From Paludisphaera mucosa (GTDB taxonomy: Bacteria; Planctomycetota; Planctomycetia; Isosphaerales; Isosphaeraceae), in NCBI RefSeq assembly GCF_029589435.1, contig NZ_JARRAG010000002.1:2170001-2234000 (forward strand): a stretch of 64,000 nt of DNA, written 5' to 3'. Below are positions 37,035 through 45,528 of this stretch, one piece after another. The position numbers and the translations under genes are program-made. Every line of letters begins with the position of its first letter. Position 1 is the stretch's first letter. The notes below the pieces were generated by a model. It had not been told where the DNA came from and ran no database searches. It saw nothing but the letters and a program-made list of their open reading frames with translations.

Positions 37035-40000
37035 ATGAAGCGATCGCCCGTTGGAAATTACGTCGCCGCCGCAGCGGTCGTCGCCGCCGTCGTCTCGATC
37101 ATCGGCCCGGTCGAGCGGTTGGTCGGGCCGGGACAGCCTCTCATCTTCTTCGTGCCGGCCGTGACGATCGCGGCCTGGATCGGCGGCCTGGGGCCGGGGC
37201 TCCTTGGCGCGGCGCTGAGCGCCCTGATCTGCTTCTATTTCTACTTTCCGCCGTACCGATCCGTCCGGGTCGATAGCCCGAGCGACCAGTTCCAGCTCGT
37301 CCTCTTCTGCCTGCAGGGGGTCGCGGTCAGCCTGTTCATGGAGAGCCTGCACGCCGCCCGGCGACGGGTGGAGGAGGTCTCGCGACGGGCCGAGGCCCGT
37401 CGCGACCGGCTGCGTAAGAGCGAGGAAGAGTTCCGGACCCTGGCCGACGCCGTCCCGCAACTGGTCTGGACCGCGGATCCGGACGGAAACACTTTCTGGT
37501 ACAACAAGAAATGGTATGAGTACACCGGGAAGACGTTCGAGGACATGCGGGGCGGGGGCTGGCGATCGGTACACGACCAGGCGACGTTGCCGCTGGTGAT
37601 GGAACGGTGGTCGAAGTCGCTCGCGTCCGGCGAGCCGTTCGACATGGTGCTCCCCCTAAGGGGGGCGGACGGGGTGTTCCGGCCTTTCCTCACCCGCGTC
37701 AACGCGGTCAAGGACGCCGAGGGCCGCGTCGTTCGATGGTTCGGGACCAACACCGACGTCACCGAGAGCCGACGCGCCGAGGAGCTCAACGCCCGCCTGG
37801 CGGCCATCGTCGAGTCGTCCGAGGACGCCATCGTCGGCAAGAATCTCGACGGCGTCGTCACCTCCTGGAACGCGTCGGCCGAGAGGCTCTTCGGCTACGC
37901 GGCCGGGGAGATCGTCGGCCGGGAGGTCCTGCTGATCATCCCGCCCGACCGCCTGGACGAGGAGTCGGAGATCCTCGGGCGGCTGCGTCGCGGCGTCGCG
38001 GTGGACCACTTCGAGACGGTCCGCCGCCGCAAGGACGGGAGCCTGATCGAGGTCTCCCTGACCATCTCGCCGATCCGCGACGCTGTGGGGCGGGTCGTCG
38101 GGGCCTCGAAGATCGCCCGCGACATATCGGAGCGCCGCAGGGCCGAAAAGCAGCAGATCGAGAAGCTCGAGCTTCAGTCTCGATTCGCCGGCGTCGCCGC
38201 CTGCGTACCGGGGGTCGTCTACTCCTTCCGGATGCGGCCGGACGGCAGTTCCTGCATGCCGTTCGCGACGGCGGCCGTCGAGGACCTCTACGGGATCCCC
38301 GCGAGCGTGCTGGCCGAGGATTTCAGCCCCGTCTATGCGAACGTCCATCCCGACGACGCCCGGGTCTTGCGCGAAGACGTCGACGAGTCCTTCCGGCGGT
38401 CCACGCCCTGGTACTCAAGGTTCCGCTACCGCCACCCCGTGAAGGGCGAGCGCTGGATCGAAGGTCGCGCCGCCTTGCAGGCGGAGCCGGATGGGAGCGT
38501 CCTCTGGCACGGGTTCCTCATGGACGTCACCGACCTGGTGGCGACGGAGTCGGCGAAGCGGGATTTCGAGAGGCTGGCCCTATCGGTCCTGGAATCGCTC
38601 CCGAACAACATCGCGGTCGTGGACGAGGCGGGTCGCATCCTCGTCGTCAACCGGGCGTGGCGTCGGTTCGCGGAGGAGAACGGGGCCGTCGGGCGGGTCG
38701 ACGAGGGGGCCGACTATTTCGAGGTCTGCAACGCGGCCACTGGGGAGGTTCGTCCCTCGGCGAGGGCCGTCGCCGCGGGCATCCGGGACGTGCTCGCCGC
38801 GCGTCGGGGCGCGTTCGAGTTCGAGTATCCCTGCCACTCGCCGTCGCGGCGGCGTTGGTTCCTCGGGCGGGTCTCCCCCTTCGTCGGGGGGGGGCCGCGG
38901 CGCGTCGTCGTCTCGCACGAGGACGTCACCGCGATGAAGGTCGCCGAGGAGCGGCTCCGCTACCGCGAGCGGATGCTGGCCCAGTCGCAGGCGATGGCCC
39001 ACGTCGGCAGCTGGGAGCTGGACCTCGACGATCGCGAAGACCTCGCCCGCAACGCGCTGCGGTGGTCCGACGAGTGCTGCCGCATTTTCGGATATGAACC
39101 GGGCCAGGTCCGGGTCGACAACGACCTGTTCCTGAAGTCCGTCCATCCCGACGACCGCGATCCGATCGCGGCCGCGATGAGGGCCATGATCGCGACGGGC
39201 GACCCGTACGAGATCGAGCATCGGATCACGCTGCCGGACGGATCGGAGCGGATCGTCCACGAATGGGCCGAGATCCTGGCCGACCCCGACGGTCTCTCGT
39301 CCCGGGTGGTGGGCACCTGCCAGGACGTGACCGAGCAGCGGCAGGTGGAAGCGACCTTGAAAGGTTGGGCGGAACGGCTGGAGACGCTGTCGCGACAGGT
39401 CCTCCGGGCCCAGGAGGACGAACGTCGCCGCATCGCCCGCGAACTGCACGACGAGATCGGCCAGGCCCTGACCGCCCTGAAGATTAACCTCCAGGAGGCG
39501 AGGGAGGGCCGCGCCGACGGGCCCGCACGGCTTGACGACAGCATCGCCATCGTGGGCGAGGCCCTCCAGCAGGTCCGCAGCATGGCGCTCGACTTGCGAC
39601 CTTCCATCCTCGACGACCTCGGGCTGGTCGCGGCGCTCGAGTGGTACGTCGAGCGGAAGGTCCAGCGCACCGGCCTGAAGGGCCGATTCGTCGCCGAGCC
39701 GGAAGACGTCCGCGCAGATCCCGAGATCGAGACCGTCTGCTTCCGCGTCGCCCAGGAGGCGTTGACCAACGTGGCGAGGCACGCGCACGCCTCCCGTTTC
39801 AGCGTCGAGCTGCGCGGGGGGGCCGCGGGCTTGCGGCTCGTCGTCCGCGACGACGGGATCGGGTTCGACCCGGCGGCCGCCCTCCGGGCCGCGTCGCGCG
39901 GGGCCAGCCTCGGACTCTCGGGGATGCAGGAGCGGGTCGAGCTGGTCGGCGGCCAGATCGAGTTCACCTCGGCGGCTTCGACAGGCACCGAGATCCAGGT

Positions 40001-40052
40001 TGATTTGCCGGCCGCCCCGCTCGCGTCGCACAGGGTCGACCGGGTCGGATGA
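37035..40052 (+). CDS. multi-PAS membrane sensor histidine kinase (HisKA_3)
   Basis: 1005 residues. N-terminal membrane domain of the KdpD-like DUF4118 type (about 8-105, three or four helices, with LGPGLLGAALSAL), then about five PAS/PAC units (roughly 128-240, 250-370, 385-500, 515-640 and 650-770). The kinase core has a HisKA_3 dimerisation helix with phospho-acceptor His805 in RRRIARELHDEIGQALTAL and a HATPase with DDGIGFDP and LGLSGMQERV. This is the NarX/DesK/LiaS class that partners NarL-type regulators. The next gene is one, overlapping or close to the stop. Confidence 0.93.
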   Translation: MKRSPVGNYVAAAAVVAAVVSIIGPVERLVGPGQPLIFFVPAVTIAAWIGGLGPGLLGAALSALICFYFYFPPYRSVRVDSPSDQFQLVLFCLQGVAVSLFMESLHAARRRVEEVSRRAEARRDRLRKSEEEFRTLADAVPQLVWTADPDGNTFWYNKKWYEYTGKTFEDMRGGGWRSVHDQATLPLVMERWSKSLASGEPFDMVLPLRGADGVFRPFLTRVNAVKDAEGRVVRWFGTNTDVTESRRAEELNARLAAIVESSEDAIVGKNLDGVVTSWNASAERLFGYAAGEIVGREVLLIIPPDRLDEESEILGRLRRGVAVDHFETVRRRKDGSLIEVSLTISPIRDAVGRVVGASKIARDISERRRAEKQQIEKLELQSRFAGVAACVPGVVYSFRMRPDGSSCMPFATAAVEDLYGIPASVLAEDFSPVYANVHPDDARVLREDVDESFRRSTPWYSRFRYRHPVKGERWIEGRAALQAEPDGSVLWHGFLMDVTDLVATESAKRDFERLALSVLESLPNNIAVVDEAGRILVVNRAWRRFAEENGAVGRVDEGADYFEVCNAATGEVRPSARAVAAGIRDVLAARRGAFEFEYPCHSPSRRRWFLGRVSPFVGGGPRRVVVSHEDVTAMKVAEERLRYRERMLAQSQAMAHVGSWELDLDDREDLARNALRWSDECCRIFGYEPGQVRVDNDLFLKSVHPDDRDPIAAAMRAMIATGDPYEIEHRITLPDGSERIVHEWAEILADPDGLSSRVVGTCQDVTEQRQVEATLKGWAERLETLSRQVLRAQEDERRRIARELHDEIGQALTALKINLQEAREGRADGPARLDDSIAIVGEALQQVRSMALDLRPSILDDLGLVAALEWYVERKVQRTGLKGRFVAEPEDVRADPEIETVCFRVAQEALTNVARHAHASRFSVELRGGAAGLRLVVRDDGIGFDPAAALRAASRGASLGLSGMQERVELVGGQIEFTSAASTGTEIQVDLPAAPLASHRVDRVG

Positions 40053-40066
40053 GGGAGGAGGACGGG

Positions 40067-40726
40067 ATGGAAAGGGATCCGATCCGCGTCTTGATCGTCG
40101 ACGATCACGCCCTCATCCGCGCCGGCCTCCGCGGGCTGCTGGCCGCGCTGCCGGAAGTCCAGGTGATCGGCGAGGCGGTCGACGGCCGCCAGGCGCTGGA
40201 GCTGGTCGAATCGCTGCGGCCCGACGTCATGATGACCGACATCTCCATGCCCGGGATCGACGGCCTGGAGCTGACGGCGGCCGTGGCTCGCGGTCCCGCC
40301 CCCACCAAGGTCCTCATCCTTTCGATGCACACCGAGCGGGCCTACGCCGATAAGGCGATGAGGGCCGGCGCGGCGGGCTATCTGGTCAAGGACTCGGGCA
40401 CCGCCGAGATCGAGCTGGCGATCCGCGCGGTCGCCCGCGGCGAATCCTATCTCAGCCCGGCGGTCACCAAACACGTCGTGGCCGGATACGCCCGCATGGC
40501 GGAGGCCGAGGCGAACGACCCCGGCCCCCTGACGCCGCGGCAGCGCGACGTCCTGAAGCTGATCGCCGCGGGGCTCACCACCAAGGCGATCGCCCACCGG
40601 CTGGACATCAGCGTCAAGACGGCGGACACGCATCGCGTCCAGCTGATGGAGCGGCTGGGTATCCATGAAATCGCGGGGCTCGTCCGTTACGCCATCCGCA
40701 CCGGACTGGTCGATCACGAGGCCTGA
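40067..40726 (+). CDS. NarL/LuxR-type response regulator
   Basis: 219 residues from the ATG at 40067, which follows GGAGGAGG by six bases; an earlier in-frame ATG at 40049 overlaps the kinase stop by four bases but lacks its own site. The receiver has the acidic pair D12-D13, phospho-acceptor D58 and K108. The C-terminal LuxR-type HTH (about 150-215) reads LTPRQRDVLKLIAAGLTTKA then DISVKTADTHR. It is the cognate partner of the adjacent HisKA_3 kinase and likely translationally coupled to it. Confidence 0.94.
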   Translation: MERDPIRVLIVDDHALIRAGLRGLLAALPEVQVIGEAVDGRQALELVESLRPDVMMTDISMPGIDGLELTAAVARGPAPTKVLILSMHTERAYADKAMRAGAAGYLVKDSGTAEIELAIRAVARGESYLSPAVTKHVVAGYARMAEAEANDPGPLTPRQRDVLKLIAAGLTTKAIAHRLDISVKTADTHRVQLMERLGIHEIAGLVRYAIRTGLVDHEA

Positions 40727-41083
40727 GCGGCCGCCGTGGGGTGATTGCCGAGTCTTCCCTAGGGTGAACTCCCGATGGTCGAGGACCCGTCCTCGACGCA
40801 CAATCGTGATAGAGGTTGGGAACTCGGACGCGGCGACCGATGTCGCTGGCCGCGACCGGGAAGGCGAGTCGGCGGGAGGTCGGCGATGCGGGGAACGGGA
40901 ACATGGGGCGGCGACGACGCTCGTCCCAGGTCGGAGAGGCGATGGGTCGGCGACGCGGCCGGCCCCGGTTCGGGATATACGACCGCGACGAGGCGGCCGA
41001 TCCCGCTCCACCTCCCGACGCTCCCGCAACCGCCCCGTCCACCTCCCGCTTTTCCCCTGTTCGGAGCCCTCGCTGACGGGCCG
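40727..41083. other. 357-base intergenic region
   Basis: Lies between the response regulator and the receiver-only gene. Apart from the perfect inverted repeat listed at 40778-40797 I see no gene or clear promoter. Open frames here overlap in all phases and follow from high GC. Confidence 0.4.
40778..40797. repeat. perfect 20-bp inverted repeat
   Basis: GTCGAGGACCCGTCCTCGAC: two 9-base arms around two bases. It sits 52 bases after the response-regulator stop. It could be a protein-binding site (for example for the adjacent NarL-type regulator) or a compact hairpin that ends the transcript; there is no T run. Confidence 0.5.
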
Positions 41084-41506
41084 ATGGGCCGGAAAGGTCG
41101 GGATCGCGTGTCCCGGACCTGGCGTGCGGTCGTCGTCGACGACCATCCGAAACTCCTGGAGATCGTCAAGCGGCTGCTGGCCACCATCCCGGGCGTCGAG
41201 GTCGTCGGGGAGGCCGTCTCGGGCCGGGAGGCCGTCGAGGCGGTGGACCGACTGCGACCCGACCTCGTTCTGATGGATATGACCATGCCGGACATGGACG
41301 GCCTGGAGGCGACGCGGAGGATCGTGGCCCGTCCGAACGCCCCGGCGGTCGTGATCATGACCGTCCACGACATGCCCCGATACCGCGACGCCGCGCTGGC
41401 CGCGGGCGCTCGCGTTTTCCTCAGCAAATCGCTACTCGCCGATCAACTTCGACGGGTGATCGCAGACCTCTCGCCCGGGCCCGGCGCCGGCGAGGAGTGG
41501 AGTTGA
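41084..41506 (+). CDS. receiver-only response regulator
   Basis: 140 residues: one REC domain with acidic pair D19-D20, phospho-acceptor D65 in VLMDMTMPDMDG and K115 in FLSKSL, and no output domain. The sequence resembles NarL-type receivers, so it may compete for phosphate from the upstream kinase or act through protein contacts. An ATG at 41084 and a GTG at 41108 are both possible starts; GGGA stands before the GTG. I list the ATG. Confidence 0.82.
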   Translation: MGRKGRDRVSRTWRAVVVDDHPKLLEIVKRLLATIPGVEVVGEAVSGREAVEAVDRLRPDLVLMDMTMPDMDGLEATRRIVARPNAPAVVIMTVHDMPRYRDAALAAGARVFLSKSLLADQLRRVIADLSPGPGAGEEWS

Positions 41507-41625
41507 TGCTCGAAGCGGTCCGCCGGCGCCGGCCCTTAGTTTAGATGTCCATCGCGTTTACCGGTTTCATCGTACCTCGTCCGTAGATCGACGGCCGCCG
41601 GGCCCATCTCGCAGGGAGAGCCTTC

Positions 41626-41895
41626 ATGTCCAAGAATATCACGATCGACGATTGCGGGCTTCGCCGTATGACCCTCGACGACCAGCCGCTCCTGATCCAG
41701 CTCATGTTCCAACTGCTCGAGAAGCTCGCCGGCCAGGGCGATGGATTGGAGTCCGTCGAGCGGTTCGACCGGTCGATTACGCGGTGGCACGACGCCGACT
41801 ACGACTACATCGACATCGATCTGCCCGAGGACGCCGAACTCGAGGCCGACATCAACGTCCACGACGGCAAGGCTTTCATCCGCTTGATGAAGTGA
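41626..41895 (+). CDS. hypothetical protein, 89 aa
   Basis: No family recognised. The protein is acidic, with an N-terminal part SKNITIDDCGLRRMTLDDQ, an amphipathic helix (PLLIQLMFQLLEKLAGQ) and a strongly acidic C-terminal half DADYDYIDIDLPEDAELEAD. GGGAGAG five bases before the ATG supports translation. It is the last gene before the IS element. Confidence 0.6.
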   Translation: MSKNITIDDCGLRRMTLDDQPLLIQLMFQLLEKLAGQGDGLESVERFDRSITRWHDADYDYIDIDLPEDAELEADINVHDGKAFIRLMK

Positions 41896-42250
41896 GGTCA
41901 GGTCCGGCTTTCGACCCCGAGCCGCCTTCGGATCTCGGCCTACCCGCCTCCGATCACTCCTGCGGCCCTTCGAACGCCTGAACGACCGGGCGGACCCGCG
42001 CCTTCCCCCTCTCCAGTTCGAGGGCGCGCCGGATCCGCCCGGCGTCCCGGGAGCCGCCGCAAAGGACGGCGCGGCCCTCGCCGCCCGCCGCGGCAGCCCC
42101 AGGCGCCCGCAGCCCCTCCACATCGTCGACCGCCTGCGCGGGCCTGCGCCGGCGAACGGCCCTGCGTCCGCCACGCGCCTTGCCTGCGGCACCCTCCAAC
42201 GGGACGCCGTCAGGCTTCCGAAAGCCCGATCCGCCCGGAAACCCGGCCCG
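41896..42250. other. 355-base gap up to the IS element
   Basis: Very GC-rich with Arg/Ala/Gly-coding open frames on both strands that match nothing I know. No ribosome site or hairpin stands out. It may be a decayed gene interrupted by the insertion sequence; the stretch continues as the hslV leader on the other side of the element. Confidence 0.4.
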
Positions 42251-42260
42251 GGCGCCGGGC
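42251..42260. repeat. target site duplication, left copy
   Basis: GGCGCCGGGC, identical to the 10 bases directly after the right inverted repeat (43472-43481). ISAs1-family elements make duplications of this size. Confidence 0.88.
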
Positions 42261-42281
42261 CAGGGTGAGTCGGTTCGTTAA
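42261..42281 (+). repeat. left terminal inverted repeat of the IS
   Basis: Begins CAGGGTGAG; matches the complement of the right end at 16 of 21 positions, including the first nine. Confidence 0.88.
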
Positions 42282-42318
42282 TTTGTGGTAGGCTGTCGAC
42301 TTTTTGGAGTCGACGCCG

Positions 42319-43462
42319 ATGGACGACCGACGCCCGCTGCGCCTGCACGACTTCCTGGCCGAGGTCCCCGACCCGCGCGAGCGGTCGGGGCGGCGGCATC
42401 CCCTGGCCGCGATCCTCGCCCACGCGTGCTGCGCGATCCTCTGCGGCTGCCGCGGCTACGCGGCGATCGCGCAGTGGGGCCGCGACCAGCCCATCGGGCT
42501 GATGCACCGCCTGGGCTATCTGCGTCGGCCCCCCTCCTACGGCGCCGTCCGCGAGGTCTTCCTCCGGCTCGACGCCGACGCCTTCGAGGCGGCCGTCGCC
42601 CGCTGGGTCGACCACGTCCTGCCCGACGTCGACCCCGACGGCCTGCGGGCCGTGGCGATCGACGGCAAGGCCTCGCGAGGGAGCCGTCGGGGCGCCGCCC
42701 CGGCGGTCCACCTGCTGGCGGCCCTCGACCAGGCCACCGGCTGCGTCCTCGCCCAGGCCCGCGTCCCGGCCGAGACCAACGAGCACAAGACGGCCCTGCG
42801 ACTGCTGAAGGGGCTGGCCCTGGAGGGCCGCGTCGTCACCGGCGACGCCGCCTTCTGCCAACGCGACCTCAGCCGCCGGGTCGTCGAGGCCGGGGGCCAC
42901 TTCCTCTGGAAGGTCGACGCCAACCAGCCGACCCTCCTGGCGGACGTCGCGGCGGCCTGCGAGCCGCCGGTTTCCCCCCTACGCCCGGCGGCGGGCCGCC
43001 GCCGAGCGCGATGAGGCGACCACGGTCGACAAGCACGGCGACCGGGTCGAACGCCGACGGCTGACCGTCACGACGATGCTGGGAGGCTACCTCGACTGGC
43101 CCCACGCCGCCCAGGTCGGCCGCCTGGAGCGGACGATCACGGCCGCGGGCCGGACGACGGTCGAGGTGCAATGCATCGTCACCAGCGTCCCACGATCCCG
43201 GGCCGACGCCGCGACGCTCCTGGCCTGGACGCGGGGCCATTGGGCGATCGAGAACGGGCTGCACTACGTCCGCGACGTCACGCTGGGCGAGGACGCCAAC
43301 CGGACCCGCACCGGCTCCGGCCCCCAGGCCCTGGCCGTCCTGCGGAACCTCGCCGTGAGTTGGCTCCGCCTCCAGGGCGTCACCAACGTCGCCGCGGCCC
43401 TCCGTCGCAACGCCGCCAGGGTCCACGAGTTGGTCGTGAACCTACGCAGCTTGAAGAACTAG
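42319..43462 (+). pseudogene. ISAs1-family transposase, frameshifted
   Basis: The first part (42319-43014) carries the DDE_Tnp_1-associated N-domain (FLAEVPDPRERSGRRHPLAA, CRGYAAIAQWG) and the first two catalytic Asp in AVAIDGKASRGS and VVTGDAAFCQ. The rest continues in the +1 frame, PPYARRRAAAERDEATT onwards, to the Glu-bearing end block GHWAIENGLHYVRDVTLGED and stop at 43460-43462. The switch falls at TTTCCCCCC (42971-42979): one C fewer would restore one reading frame of about 380 codons. So it is inactive, or uses +1 frameshifting, or reflects a homopolymer error. GGAG stands nine bases before the ATG. Confidence 0.88.
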
Positions 43463-43471
43463 CTCACCCTG
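43451..43471 (-). repeat. right terminal inverted repeat of the IS
   Basis: Ends CTCACCCTG on the plus strand; the transposase stop codon TAG (43460-43462) lies inside it. Confidence 0.88.
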
Positions 43472-43481
43472 GGCGCCGGGC
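43472..43481. repeat. target site duplication, right copy
   Basis: GGCGCCGGGC, identical to 42251-42260. Confidence 0.88.
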
Positions 43482-43609
43482 GCCGCCGCTTGGCACGAAC
43501 TCGGGCGATCCCGTATCTTCGGGGAGGCCGAGCGATCCCGCCGTCCCGAGCCGTCTGATGAAGGGTGGCGGCGGGACCGGACGCGATCGGCGACCAGGAG
43601 GCGACCCCC

Positions 43610-44158
43610 TTGAAGTGGCATGCGACGACGATCCTCTCGGTCCGCAAGGGGGGCAAGGTCGCGATCGGCGGCGACGGCCAGGTGACGCTCGGCACCCAGG
43701 TCATGAAGGCCGACGCGGTGAAGATCCGCAAGCTGCTCGACGGCCAGGTGATCGTCGGCTTCGCCGGCTCCGCGGCCGACGGCTTCGCCCTGCTGGACCG
43801 GTTCGAGGCCAAGCTCAAGGACCACCCCAACAACGTCCCCCGCGCCGCCATCGAGCTGGCCAAGCTCTGGCGGACCGACCGCATGCTCCGGCGGCTGGAG
43901 GCCGTGCTGCTGGTGGTCGACGCCCGGCACAGCCTGCTGCTGACCGGCTCGGGCGACGTGATCCAGCCCACCGACGGCATCCTCGCCACCGGCTCCGGCG
44001 GCGGCTACGCGCTGGCCGCGGCGCGGGCCCTGATCGCCCACTCGACCCTCTCGGCGGGCGAGATCGTCCGCGAGTCGCTCCTGATCGCCGGCGGGATCGA
44101 CATCTATACGAACACGAACCTGACGGTGGAGGAACTCCCGTGCCCGAGCCCGAGCTGA
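43610..44158 (+). CDS. hslV: ATP-dependent protease peptidase subunit HslV (ClpQ)
   Basis: 182 residues. HslV is the threonine peptidase of the HslUV two-ring protease. The active-site Thr is the first of [20 protein letters not shown]; from the chosen TTG start the propeptide would be five residues (M-K-W-H-A), removed on maturation. Further blocks are [20 protein letters not shown] and [19 protein letters not shown] is supported by AGGAGG eight bases upstream; an upstream ATG has no site and adds unrelated residues. The end overlaps hslU by 19 bases. Confidence 0.95.
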
Positions 44159-45528
44159 CCCCCCGACGGATCGTCGCCGAGCTGGACCGCGACATCGTCG
44201 GCCAGGCCGACGCCAAGCGCGCGGTGGCGATCGCCCTGCGCAACCGCTGGCGGCGGCGGCAGCTCACCGACGAGCTGAGGGCCCAGGTGACGCCCAAGAA
44301 CATCCTGCTCATCGGCCCGACGGGCGTGGGCAAGACCGAGATCGCCCGCCGCCTCGCCATCCTCGTCGGCGCCCCGTTCGTGAAGACCGAGGCCTCGAAG
44401 TACACCGAGGTCGGCTACTACGGCCGCGACGTCGAGAGCATCATCCGCGATTTGGTCGAGGCCGCGATCCTGCTGGTCCGCAACACCGAGCGCAAGCGGG
44501 TGCAGGAGCAGGCCGAGGCCCGCGTCGAGGACCGCCTGCTCGACCTGCTGCTGCCGGCCGCCGGGGGGGCCTCGCCGTCGCCCTCGCCCTCGCCGTGGGA
44601 CCCGACCCCGCCCCCGGGCGCGGTCGACGAGGCCGCCGAGCGCCGGGCCCGCTCGCGCGAGAAGCTACGCGCCCGCCTCGCCGCCGGCGAGCTGGAGGAC
44701 CGCGAGGTCGAGGTGACGATCCCCGGCCGCTCGGCCCCCCCGGTCTCGATCATGGGGGCCGGCAACCTCGAACAGATGGAGCTGGACGTCCAGGGCATGT
44801 TCGAGAAGTTCATGCCCAAGTCGACCCAGACCCGCCGCACGACCGTCCGCGAGGCCCGGCCGATCCTGCACCAGCATGAGGTCGACGCCCTGCTCGACCC
44901 CGAGAAGATCAACAAGGCGGCCCTCGAGCTGGCCCAGGAGTCGGGCATTGTCTTCATCGACGAGATCGACAAGGTCGCCGGCGACGAGGGGGGCGGGCGT
45001 GGGCCCGACGTCTCGCGCCAGGGCGTCCAGCGCGACCTGCTGCCGATCGTCGAGGGGACGACGGTTACGACCAAGCACGGCCCGGTCAAGACCGACCACG
45101 TCCTGTTCATCGCCGCCGGGGCCTTCCACCGCAGCAAGCCCTCGGACCTGATGCCCGAGCTGCAGGGCCGGTTCCCGATCCGCGTCGAGATGCACGACCT
45201 CGCCCGCGACGACTTCGCCCGGATCCTCCGCGAGCCCCGGGCCTCCCTGCTCCGCCAGTACGAGGCGCTGCTCGCCACCGAGGGGGTGACCGTCGAGTTC
45301 ACCGACGACGCGATCGAGGCCATGGCCGACCTCGCCTTCCAGGTCAACCGCACGACCCAGAACATCGGCGCCCGCCGCCTCCACACGATCCTGGAACGCG
45401 TCCTCGAAGACCTCAGCTTCGAGGCCCCCGACCGCGCCGGCGAGCGCACCGTCGTCGACGCCCAGCTCGTCCGGGCCCGCCTCGAAGACGTCGCCAAGGA
45501 CGAGGACCTGAGCCGCTACATCCTCTGA
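44140..45528 (+). CDS. hslU: ATP-dependent protease ATPase subunit HslU (ClpY)
   Basis: 462 residues. AAA+ unfoldase that feeds substrates to HslV. Start begins [21 protein letters not shown]; Walker A GPTGVGKT at 59-66, [14 protein letters not shown] sensor region, Walker B VFIDEID at 271-277, and the C-terminal EDLSRYIL tail that docks in HslV. The I-domain (about 105-240) contains a Ser/Pro-rich insert [17 protein letters not shown] at 144-160. GTG start is supported by GGAGGA six bases upstream, inside hslV; the 19-base overlap implies translational coupling. Confidence 0.96.

Follow-up and report, generated by a model that had tools for sequence, protein, structure and literature searches.

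A split ISAs1-family transposase gene in Paludisphaera mucosa carries a hairpin and T/C tract predicted to direct transcriptional slippage

The window, a stretch of 64,000 nt from the genome of Paludisphaera mucosa, contains upstream of hslV an insertion sequence of 1211 bp (42261–43471; 42251–43481 with both target duplications), delimited by inspection of the sequence (Table 1). A preliminary description of this DNA had recognized a complete ISAs1-family element with both inverted repeats and an exact 10-bp duplication. It was correct on each point, as judged from the ends (CAGGGTGAG and CTCACCCTG), the duplications and the score against the family model NF033564. The search for further copies that it had proposed was run on the host genome (8.2 Mb, 9 contigs) and returned two, both on the same contig (C2:2589549–2590759 and C2:2657304–2658514). 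All three copies are 100% identical across exactly 1211 bp, and the two further copies each lie between exact 10-bp duplications of their own (CTCGTCCCTC and CGCCTGACCT). Three identical copies, each with its own exact duplication, indicate that the element has moved recently, in line with the recent movement originally proposed. Five congeners yielded no copy at E 1e-25 and, together with the identical copies, this points to a recent, recently active arrival; short diverged pieces, and only such pieces, were seen in genome G030. To look for the empty site, the joined flanks of two of the three copies, the window copy and L003, were each aligned with five congeners. L072 alone aligns across the junction of the window copy (∼20 bp), and L210 alone, with gaps, across that of L003; neither alignment gave a clean empty site. 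Searches for the element in plasmid records (1e-30), for Rfam families within 41800–44400 and for intrinsic terminators within 42200–43680 returned nothing.

Table 1. Features of the element and of its surroundings (positions in the window)
Feature	Position	Strand	Basis or remarks
Target duplication, left copy GGCGCCGGGC	42251–42260	none	Read in the sequence; scripted check
Entire ISAs1-family element, 1211 bp	42261–43471	+	Three identical copies in the genome; family model
Left terminal inverted repeat CAGGGTGAG	42261–42269	+	Perfect 9 bp; imperfect pairing to ∼22 nt
orfA, frame A	42319–43014	+	ATG 42319 or TTG 42304; stop TGA 43012–43014
Frame B (+1)	42809–43462	+	Second part of DDE domain, IEN 43247; stop TAG 43460–43462
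Hairpin CGGCGGC-ctgcga-GCCGCCG	42950–42969	+	Stem of 7 bp, loop of 6, one base 5′ of T run
Putative slippage tract TTTCCCCCC (T3C6)	42971–42979	+	At the frame transition
Right terminal inverted repeat CTCACCCTG	43463–43471	+	Sequence
Target duplication, right copy GGCGCCGGGC	43472–43481	none	Read in the sequence; scripted check
Promoter-like site TTGGCA-18-TATCTT	43490–43519	+	Sigma-70-like scan; before hslV, uncut by the insertion
hslV open frame	43565–44158	+	Start probably TTG 43611 after GGAGG (by eye)

Scored against the ISAs1 model of NCBIfam (NF033564; cut-off 70 bits), the joined reading of the transposase reached 213.2 bits and covered model positions 1–312 of 314; each half exceeds the cut-off by itself (127.5 bits for the first, 80.3 bits for the second). 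The Pfam domains of the transposase are PF13808 and PF01609. ISAs1 target duplications span 8–10 bp, and the 9-bp perfect ends and three exact 10-bp duplications found here likewise place the element in the family. ISAs1 elements are usually described with a single transposase frame, a property that we did not treat as decisive for membership; in the present element the transposase occupies two frames. No match of this transposase to IS630 was found at 1e-3, which leaves it outside that family, and no relative of the joined product was found among solved structures at E 0.01. The host also carries another, single-frame ISAs1 element (403-aa frame) in five equal-scoring copies (G000:C2 3164703, 4196440, 4476571 and 4589399, and C7 6811).

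It had further been suggested that the insertion altered the promoter or leader of hslV, which our results do not support. The only sigma-70-like site found between the element and hslV lies downstream of the insertion, 18 bp from the end of the element and 8 bp from the end of the duplication, so that the core promoter of hslV is probably intact; by eye, the site looks conserved in four alignable congeners (L076 is absent from the alignment). An upstream regulatory site for hslV could possibly have been affected. The stretch upstream of the insertion (41900–42250) hardly aligns with the congeners L072–L076 (one of the five, over ∼20 bp), thus suggesting that the neighbourhood has probably been rearranged. 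Farther upstream, at 37035–41506, we noted by eye a 1005-aa frame resembling a PAS-type histidine kinase, followed by two response-regulator-like frames.

No single frame spans the transposase gene; frames A and B (+1) are both open across TTTCCCCCC. This split, like the hairpin and T/C tract described below, is absent from the preliminary description. OrfA contains the DDE_Tnp_1_assoc domain and the beginning of the DDE domain, including the motifs DGK (42661) and GDA (42841); the stop codon of frame B adjoins the right inverted repeat. From what is known of DDE transposases, we take DGK, GDA and the IEN of frame B to hold the three catalytic acids. Similarity switches from frame A to frame B at GTTTCCCCCCTAC, and a skip of one base there yields a 380-aa protein, the only product that covers the whole ISAs1 model (213 bits) and has the complete triad. 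Read without a skip, the gene yields only a protein of 231 aa, which comprises the N-terminal domain and two members of the presumed catalytic triad. An antisense open frame (41536–42900, 454 aa) was set aside as a by-product of high G+C content.

The frame transition coincides with the tract T3C6, preceded by a hairpin. TTTCCCCC occurs only once on the two strands of the window together, at the tract, against 2.5 occurrences expected from shuffles, so that its presence by itself is within chance expectation. Likewise, the host genome contains 37 sites of TTTCCCCCC and 24 of TTTTCCCCC, and reversed-sequence controls are about equally frequent. The hairpin, with a folding energy of −15.2 kcal/mol, is only modestly better than shuffled versions of this GC-rich stretch, 12 of the 200 folding equally well (z −1.6). 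Loci were available for 54 of the 61 host sites and gave 45 distinct T3+C5+ sites, of which two have a flush hairpin: the one in the window element and L258. Thus the tract by itself is ordinary, while its combination with a hairpin is not. The site in L258 (host C2:1655529) stands directly behind a TGA stop codon and looks like a terminator.

To follow the arrangement among relatives we collected 136 loci. Matches were present in 20 of 392 genomes of Planctomycetota, the phylum of the window (at 1e-20, own genome included), in 18 of 45 genomes of its family (at 1e-25, own genome included) and in 31 of 400 genomes from the phylum to which a Chloroflexota record belongs (at 1e-25); six loci came from named records (one Pirellulaceae, four Chloroflexota/Dehalococcoidia by title and one bacterium without further name). 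Loci were drawn from the best matches to the window element, its orfA, the orfA of L066 or, in the own genome, PF13808; the sample is therefore weighted to close kin. After 22 loci without one half or ending early were left out, the remaining 114 collapsed to 74 distinct elements, the window element included. Loci were merged only when both tract and shift were equal; one element is therefore counted twice, as L114 (C7) and as L173 (C6), also within the 13 hairpins given below.

Tract and frame break are strongly associated in these elements. A T3+C4+ tract near the site is present in 31, of which 28 are out of frame (25 with shift +1; L095, L114 and L125 with shift 2) and three in frame (L092, L112 and L192); among the 43 without a tract, 36 are in frame and seven out (28/31 versus 7/43; Fisher p 1e-10 over the 74 distinct elements). 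The shift of +1 in 25 of the 28 is the direction that loss of one base requires. The T3C4 of L192 stands away from the site; tracts of the other 30 range from T4C4 to T3C8. The seven out-of-frame elements lacking a tract are L024, L030, L034, L097, L108, L132 and L178. With the exception of L097, these may have decayed, or their frames may have been miscalled; L024, L030 and L034, frame-broken ISAs1 genes of the own genome, are probably decayed copies.

A stem of at least five perfect pairs, 0–2 bases from the T run, was found in 13 of the 31 tract elements, where 1.09 (sd 1.02) were expected from other positions within the same genes. The 13 stems represent 10 different sequences, and at each of the five basal pairs substitutions occur in both arms of the stem. 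The combined p-value of a hairpin test on 24 elements was 7e-10, a figure to be read loosely since the test treats related elements as independent. Among the 18 tract elements without a flush perfect 5-pair stem, L066, L096, L098, L107 and L176 have hairpins that are shorter, contain bulges or lie farther away; L099, L100 and L153 have no convincing one. In a tree built from 49 transposases, the 23 elements with a T3+C5+ tract all fall into one group of 25 (SH-aLRT 100), which also holds L097 and L157; none of the other 24 has such a tract. This is a quick tree with a midpoint root, built before the Chloroflexota search and without L176, L179–L181 and the distant L199 (T3C7, shift 1); the partial L107 sits on a long branch. 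The split relatives from Planctomycetota and Chloroflexota records are still ∼38–59% identical in both halves.

Some elements show how the signal varies. L129 (G018) has C6 and is in frame, against C7 in its close kin L128; L129 and L112 (G282) probably represent secondary fusions, in which the C run changed by one base while the tract was kept. In L097 (G360) a TTA8 sequence replaces the T/C tract at the same place (locus position ∼1944) with the opposite frame change, and by eye a hairpin, ATCAA-atacc-TTGAT, precedes it; one slippage signal may possibly have been swapped for another. Single-base changes in the run of C appear able to retune or abolish the tract (the in-frame L129; the C8 of L125), and an A run can take its place (L097); if the proposal set out below is true, the tract would constitute an evolvable dial of transposition.

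Three features of the signal known from a Roseiflexus element are found in the window element: a T run followed by a C run at the frame transition (TTTCCCCCC), a stable hairpin directly 5′ to these runs (7 bp, one base away) and a frame relation (shift +1) in which the frames are joined by loss of one C. The simplest account of this agreement is the same mechanism, reached independently, and we consider it probable that the ISAs1 subgroup produces its transposase via hairpin-driven transcriptional slippage. As RNA polymerase transcribes TTTCCCCCC, the hairpin of the nascent RNA (42950–42969) would fold in the exit channel and allow the RNA:DNA hybrid to re-pair one base further forward, which would leave a fraction of transcripts short of one C. 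Normal translation of these transcripts would give the 380-aa DDE transposase, and unslipped transcripts would give the 231-aa protein only. Such a signal would hold transposase at a low level, and the short product may act as an inhibitor. From the sequence we infer all three parts of this proposal, namely the occurrence of slippage, its transcriptional nature and a regulatory role of the short product. Counting against slippage are the T run of the window tract (T3C6), shorter than in the T5C5 described; the 18 of 31 tract elements lacking a flush stem, together with a z of only −1.6 for the window hairpin; and the three tract elements with shift 2 and three in frame.

The chief rival is programmed +1 ribosomal frameshifting, in which the ribosome skips one base at UUU UCC CCC; we regard it as unlikely. 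The +1 shift of 25 of the 28 out-of-frame tract elements would suit it, a conserved direction being a sign of ribosomal frameshifting according to the GeneTack authors (excerpts of PMC3711429). The review of Atkins et al. (PMC5009743, in excerpt) also reports that +1 shifting takes place at CCC codons in genes of Listeria phages and that in synthetic constructs a stem-loop 4 nt 5′ of the shift site stimulated +1 shifting; the same excerpts state that no insertion sequence with +1 ribosomal frameshifting had been identified as of 2016. The phase in which the tract is read in frame A speaks against codon-directed shifting: most elements have phase 1, but L100, L120 and L173 have phase 0 and L107 has phase 2, and a tract kept in varying phase suggests selection on nucleotides and not on a fixed codon pair. 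The frame-A stop does not stand directly after the tract either, being at least 12 bases off in the elements examined. Moreover, a ribosome would normally open a hairpin located flush 5′ of the site.

Out-of-frame copies have spread in other genomes as well. In G004 there are seven copies without a single difference over 1256 bp; each of them has T3C7 and shift +1, and six have exact 10-bp duplications. Seven copies examined in G132 comprise five with T4C7, three of which carry TAG just before the tract, and two with T4C6 and the +1 relation; these near-identical copies in one genome are L168–L172 (C7) and L173 and L174 (C6). The two sets indicate that out-of-frame copies multiply while the length of their C run drifts, and the C7 copies of G132, three with a stop before the tract, indicate that decay occurs too.

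As another possibility, the element might be a frameshifted non-autonomous copy mobilized in trans by an intact ISAs1 transposase. The host does have other ISAs1 genes, several with frames of 347–410 aa, and IS copies multiplying in bursts, many of them with a broken transposase frame, have been reported elsewhere (PMC8763236, in excerpt). These other ISAs1 genes are, however, ∼30–36% identical to the present one, with no intact close relative found in the genome, and the same break, at the same place and with the same kind of tract, recurs in Planctomycetota and Chloroflexota relatives at the identity given above, which makes trans mobilization quite improbable as an explanation of the split. 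Phase variation, on which the differences in C-run length between close kin (C6 and C7 in G132; L128 and L129) could bear, is more doubtful still: the same out-of-frame length is present in three of three host copies and seven of seven G004 copies, and the hairpin would have no obvious role. Besides, five to six C make a short run for a phase-variable tract. An assembly or homopolymer sequencing error, which if systematic could strike all three copies alike, can practically be dismissed given the same organization in many separately assembled genomes from two collections.

Transcriptional slippage at the hairpin and T/C tract thus remains our preferred reading, and we lean towards the wider view that an ISAs1 subgroup spanning at least two phyla independently evolved this switch, so that the polymerase and not the ribosome doses transposase. 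If true, the presence of the signal in a second, unrelated transposase family would make it a recurring regulatory solution. The 28 out-of-frame variants, with differing hairpins, tract lengths and phases, would offer a natural series for deriving the sequence rules. Annotation can take such split elements for broken genes.

IS1/IS3-type shift sites are A-rich and have 3′ structures. Like the window element, IS1/IS3-type elements with ribosomal frameshifting have two overlapping frames whose joined product is the transposase (PMC5009743, in excerpt), the shift direction (−1) being opposite to that of the window element. IS1447 of the IS3 family makes its transposase from RNA slippage on a tract beside a stem-loop, as predicted for the window element, though this tract is poly-A (A9) (PMC6211511, in excerpt). 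The families with frameshifting named in the excerpts of PMC5009743 are IS1, IS3, IS5 and IS630, and several insertion sequences using transcriptional realignment are said there to shift +1. The GeneTack survey has +1 clusters of DDE_Tnp_1 transposases that might include ISAs1 (PMC3711429, in excerpt); in the literature surveyed, partly in excerpt and with ISfinder and supplements outside it, no ISAs1 member with slippage is described. Against the ISAs1 family at large (NF033564; PF13808 and PF01609), the window element is alike in domains, size of the joined product, inverted repeats and 10-bp duplication; it differs in the split of the transposase at the hairpin and T/C tract, whereas 36 of the 43 elements without the tract have a single frame.

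The closest parallel is the Roseiflexus element, reportedly of the IS630 family, whose slippage on T5C5 is attributed to Penno et al. 2015 and is described in PMC5009743 and PMC6211511. In that element a nascent RNA hairpin (GCGGGCgcaaGCCCGC) causes the polymerase to lose one C on T5C5; the slippage is unidirectional and undetectable without the context features (Atkins et al. 2016, PMC5009743, in excerpt). We located the exact Roseiflexus signal in two of 400 genomes (twice in G605, once in G768); the transposase at this signal (L158) belongs to the IS630 family (124.6 bits), and L158–L160 gave no alignment with the window transposase better than E 3. The two transposases are thus without sequence relation, the Roseiflexus one having the HTH and DDE_3 domains of IS630 (NF033545). 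The systems are alike in the hairpin by a T/C tract and in the one-C-loss frame relation, slippage in the window element being predicted from sequence; they differ in the tract (T5C5 versus T3C6) and in the position of the hairpin, flush in Roseiflexus and with one base between in the window element. In the literature surveyed, partly in excerpt, the Roseiflexus element is the one case of slippage that depends on a hairpin and uses a mixed T/C tract. The mechanism itself is known; the novelty would lie in its adoption by an ISAs1 subgroup, in the range of variants that occur in nature and in what looks like convergence with IS630.
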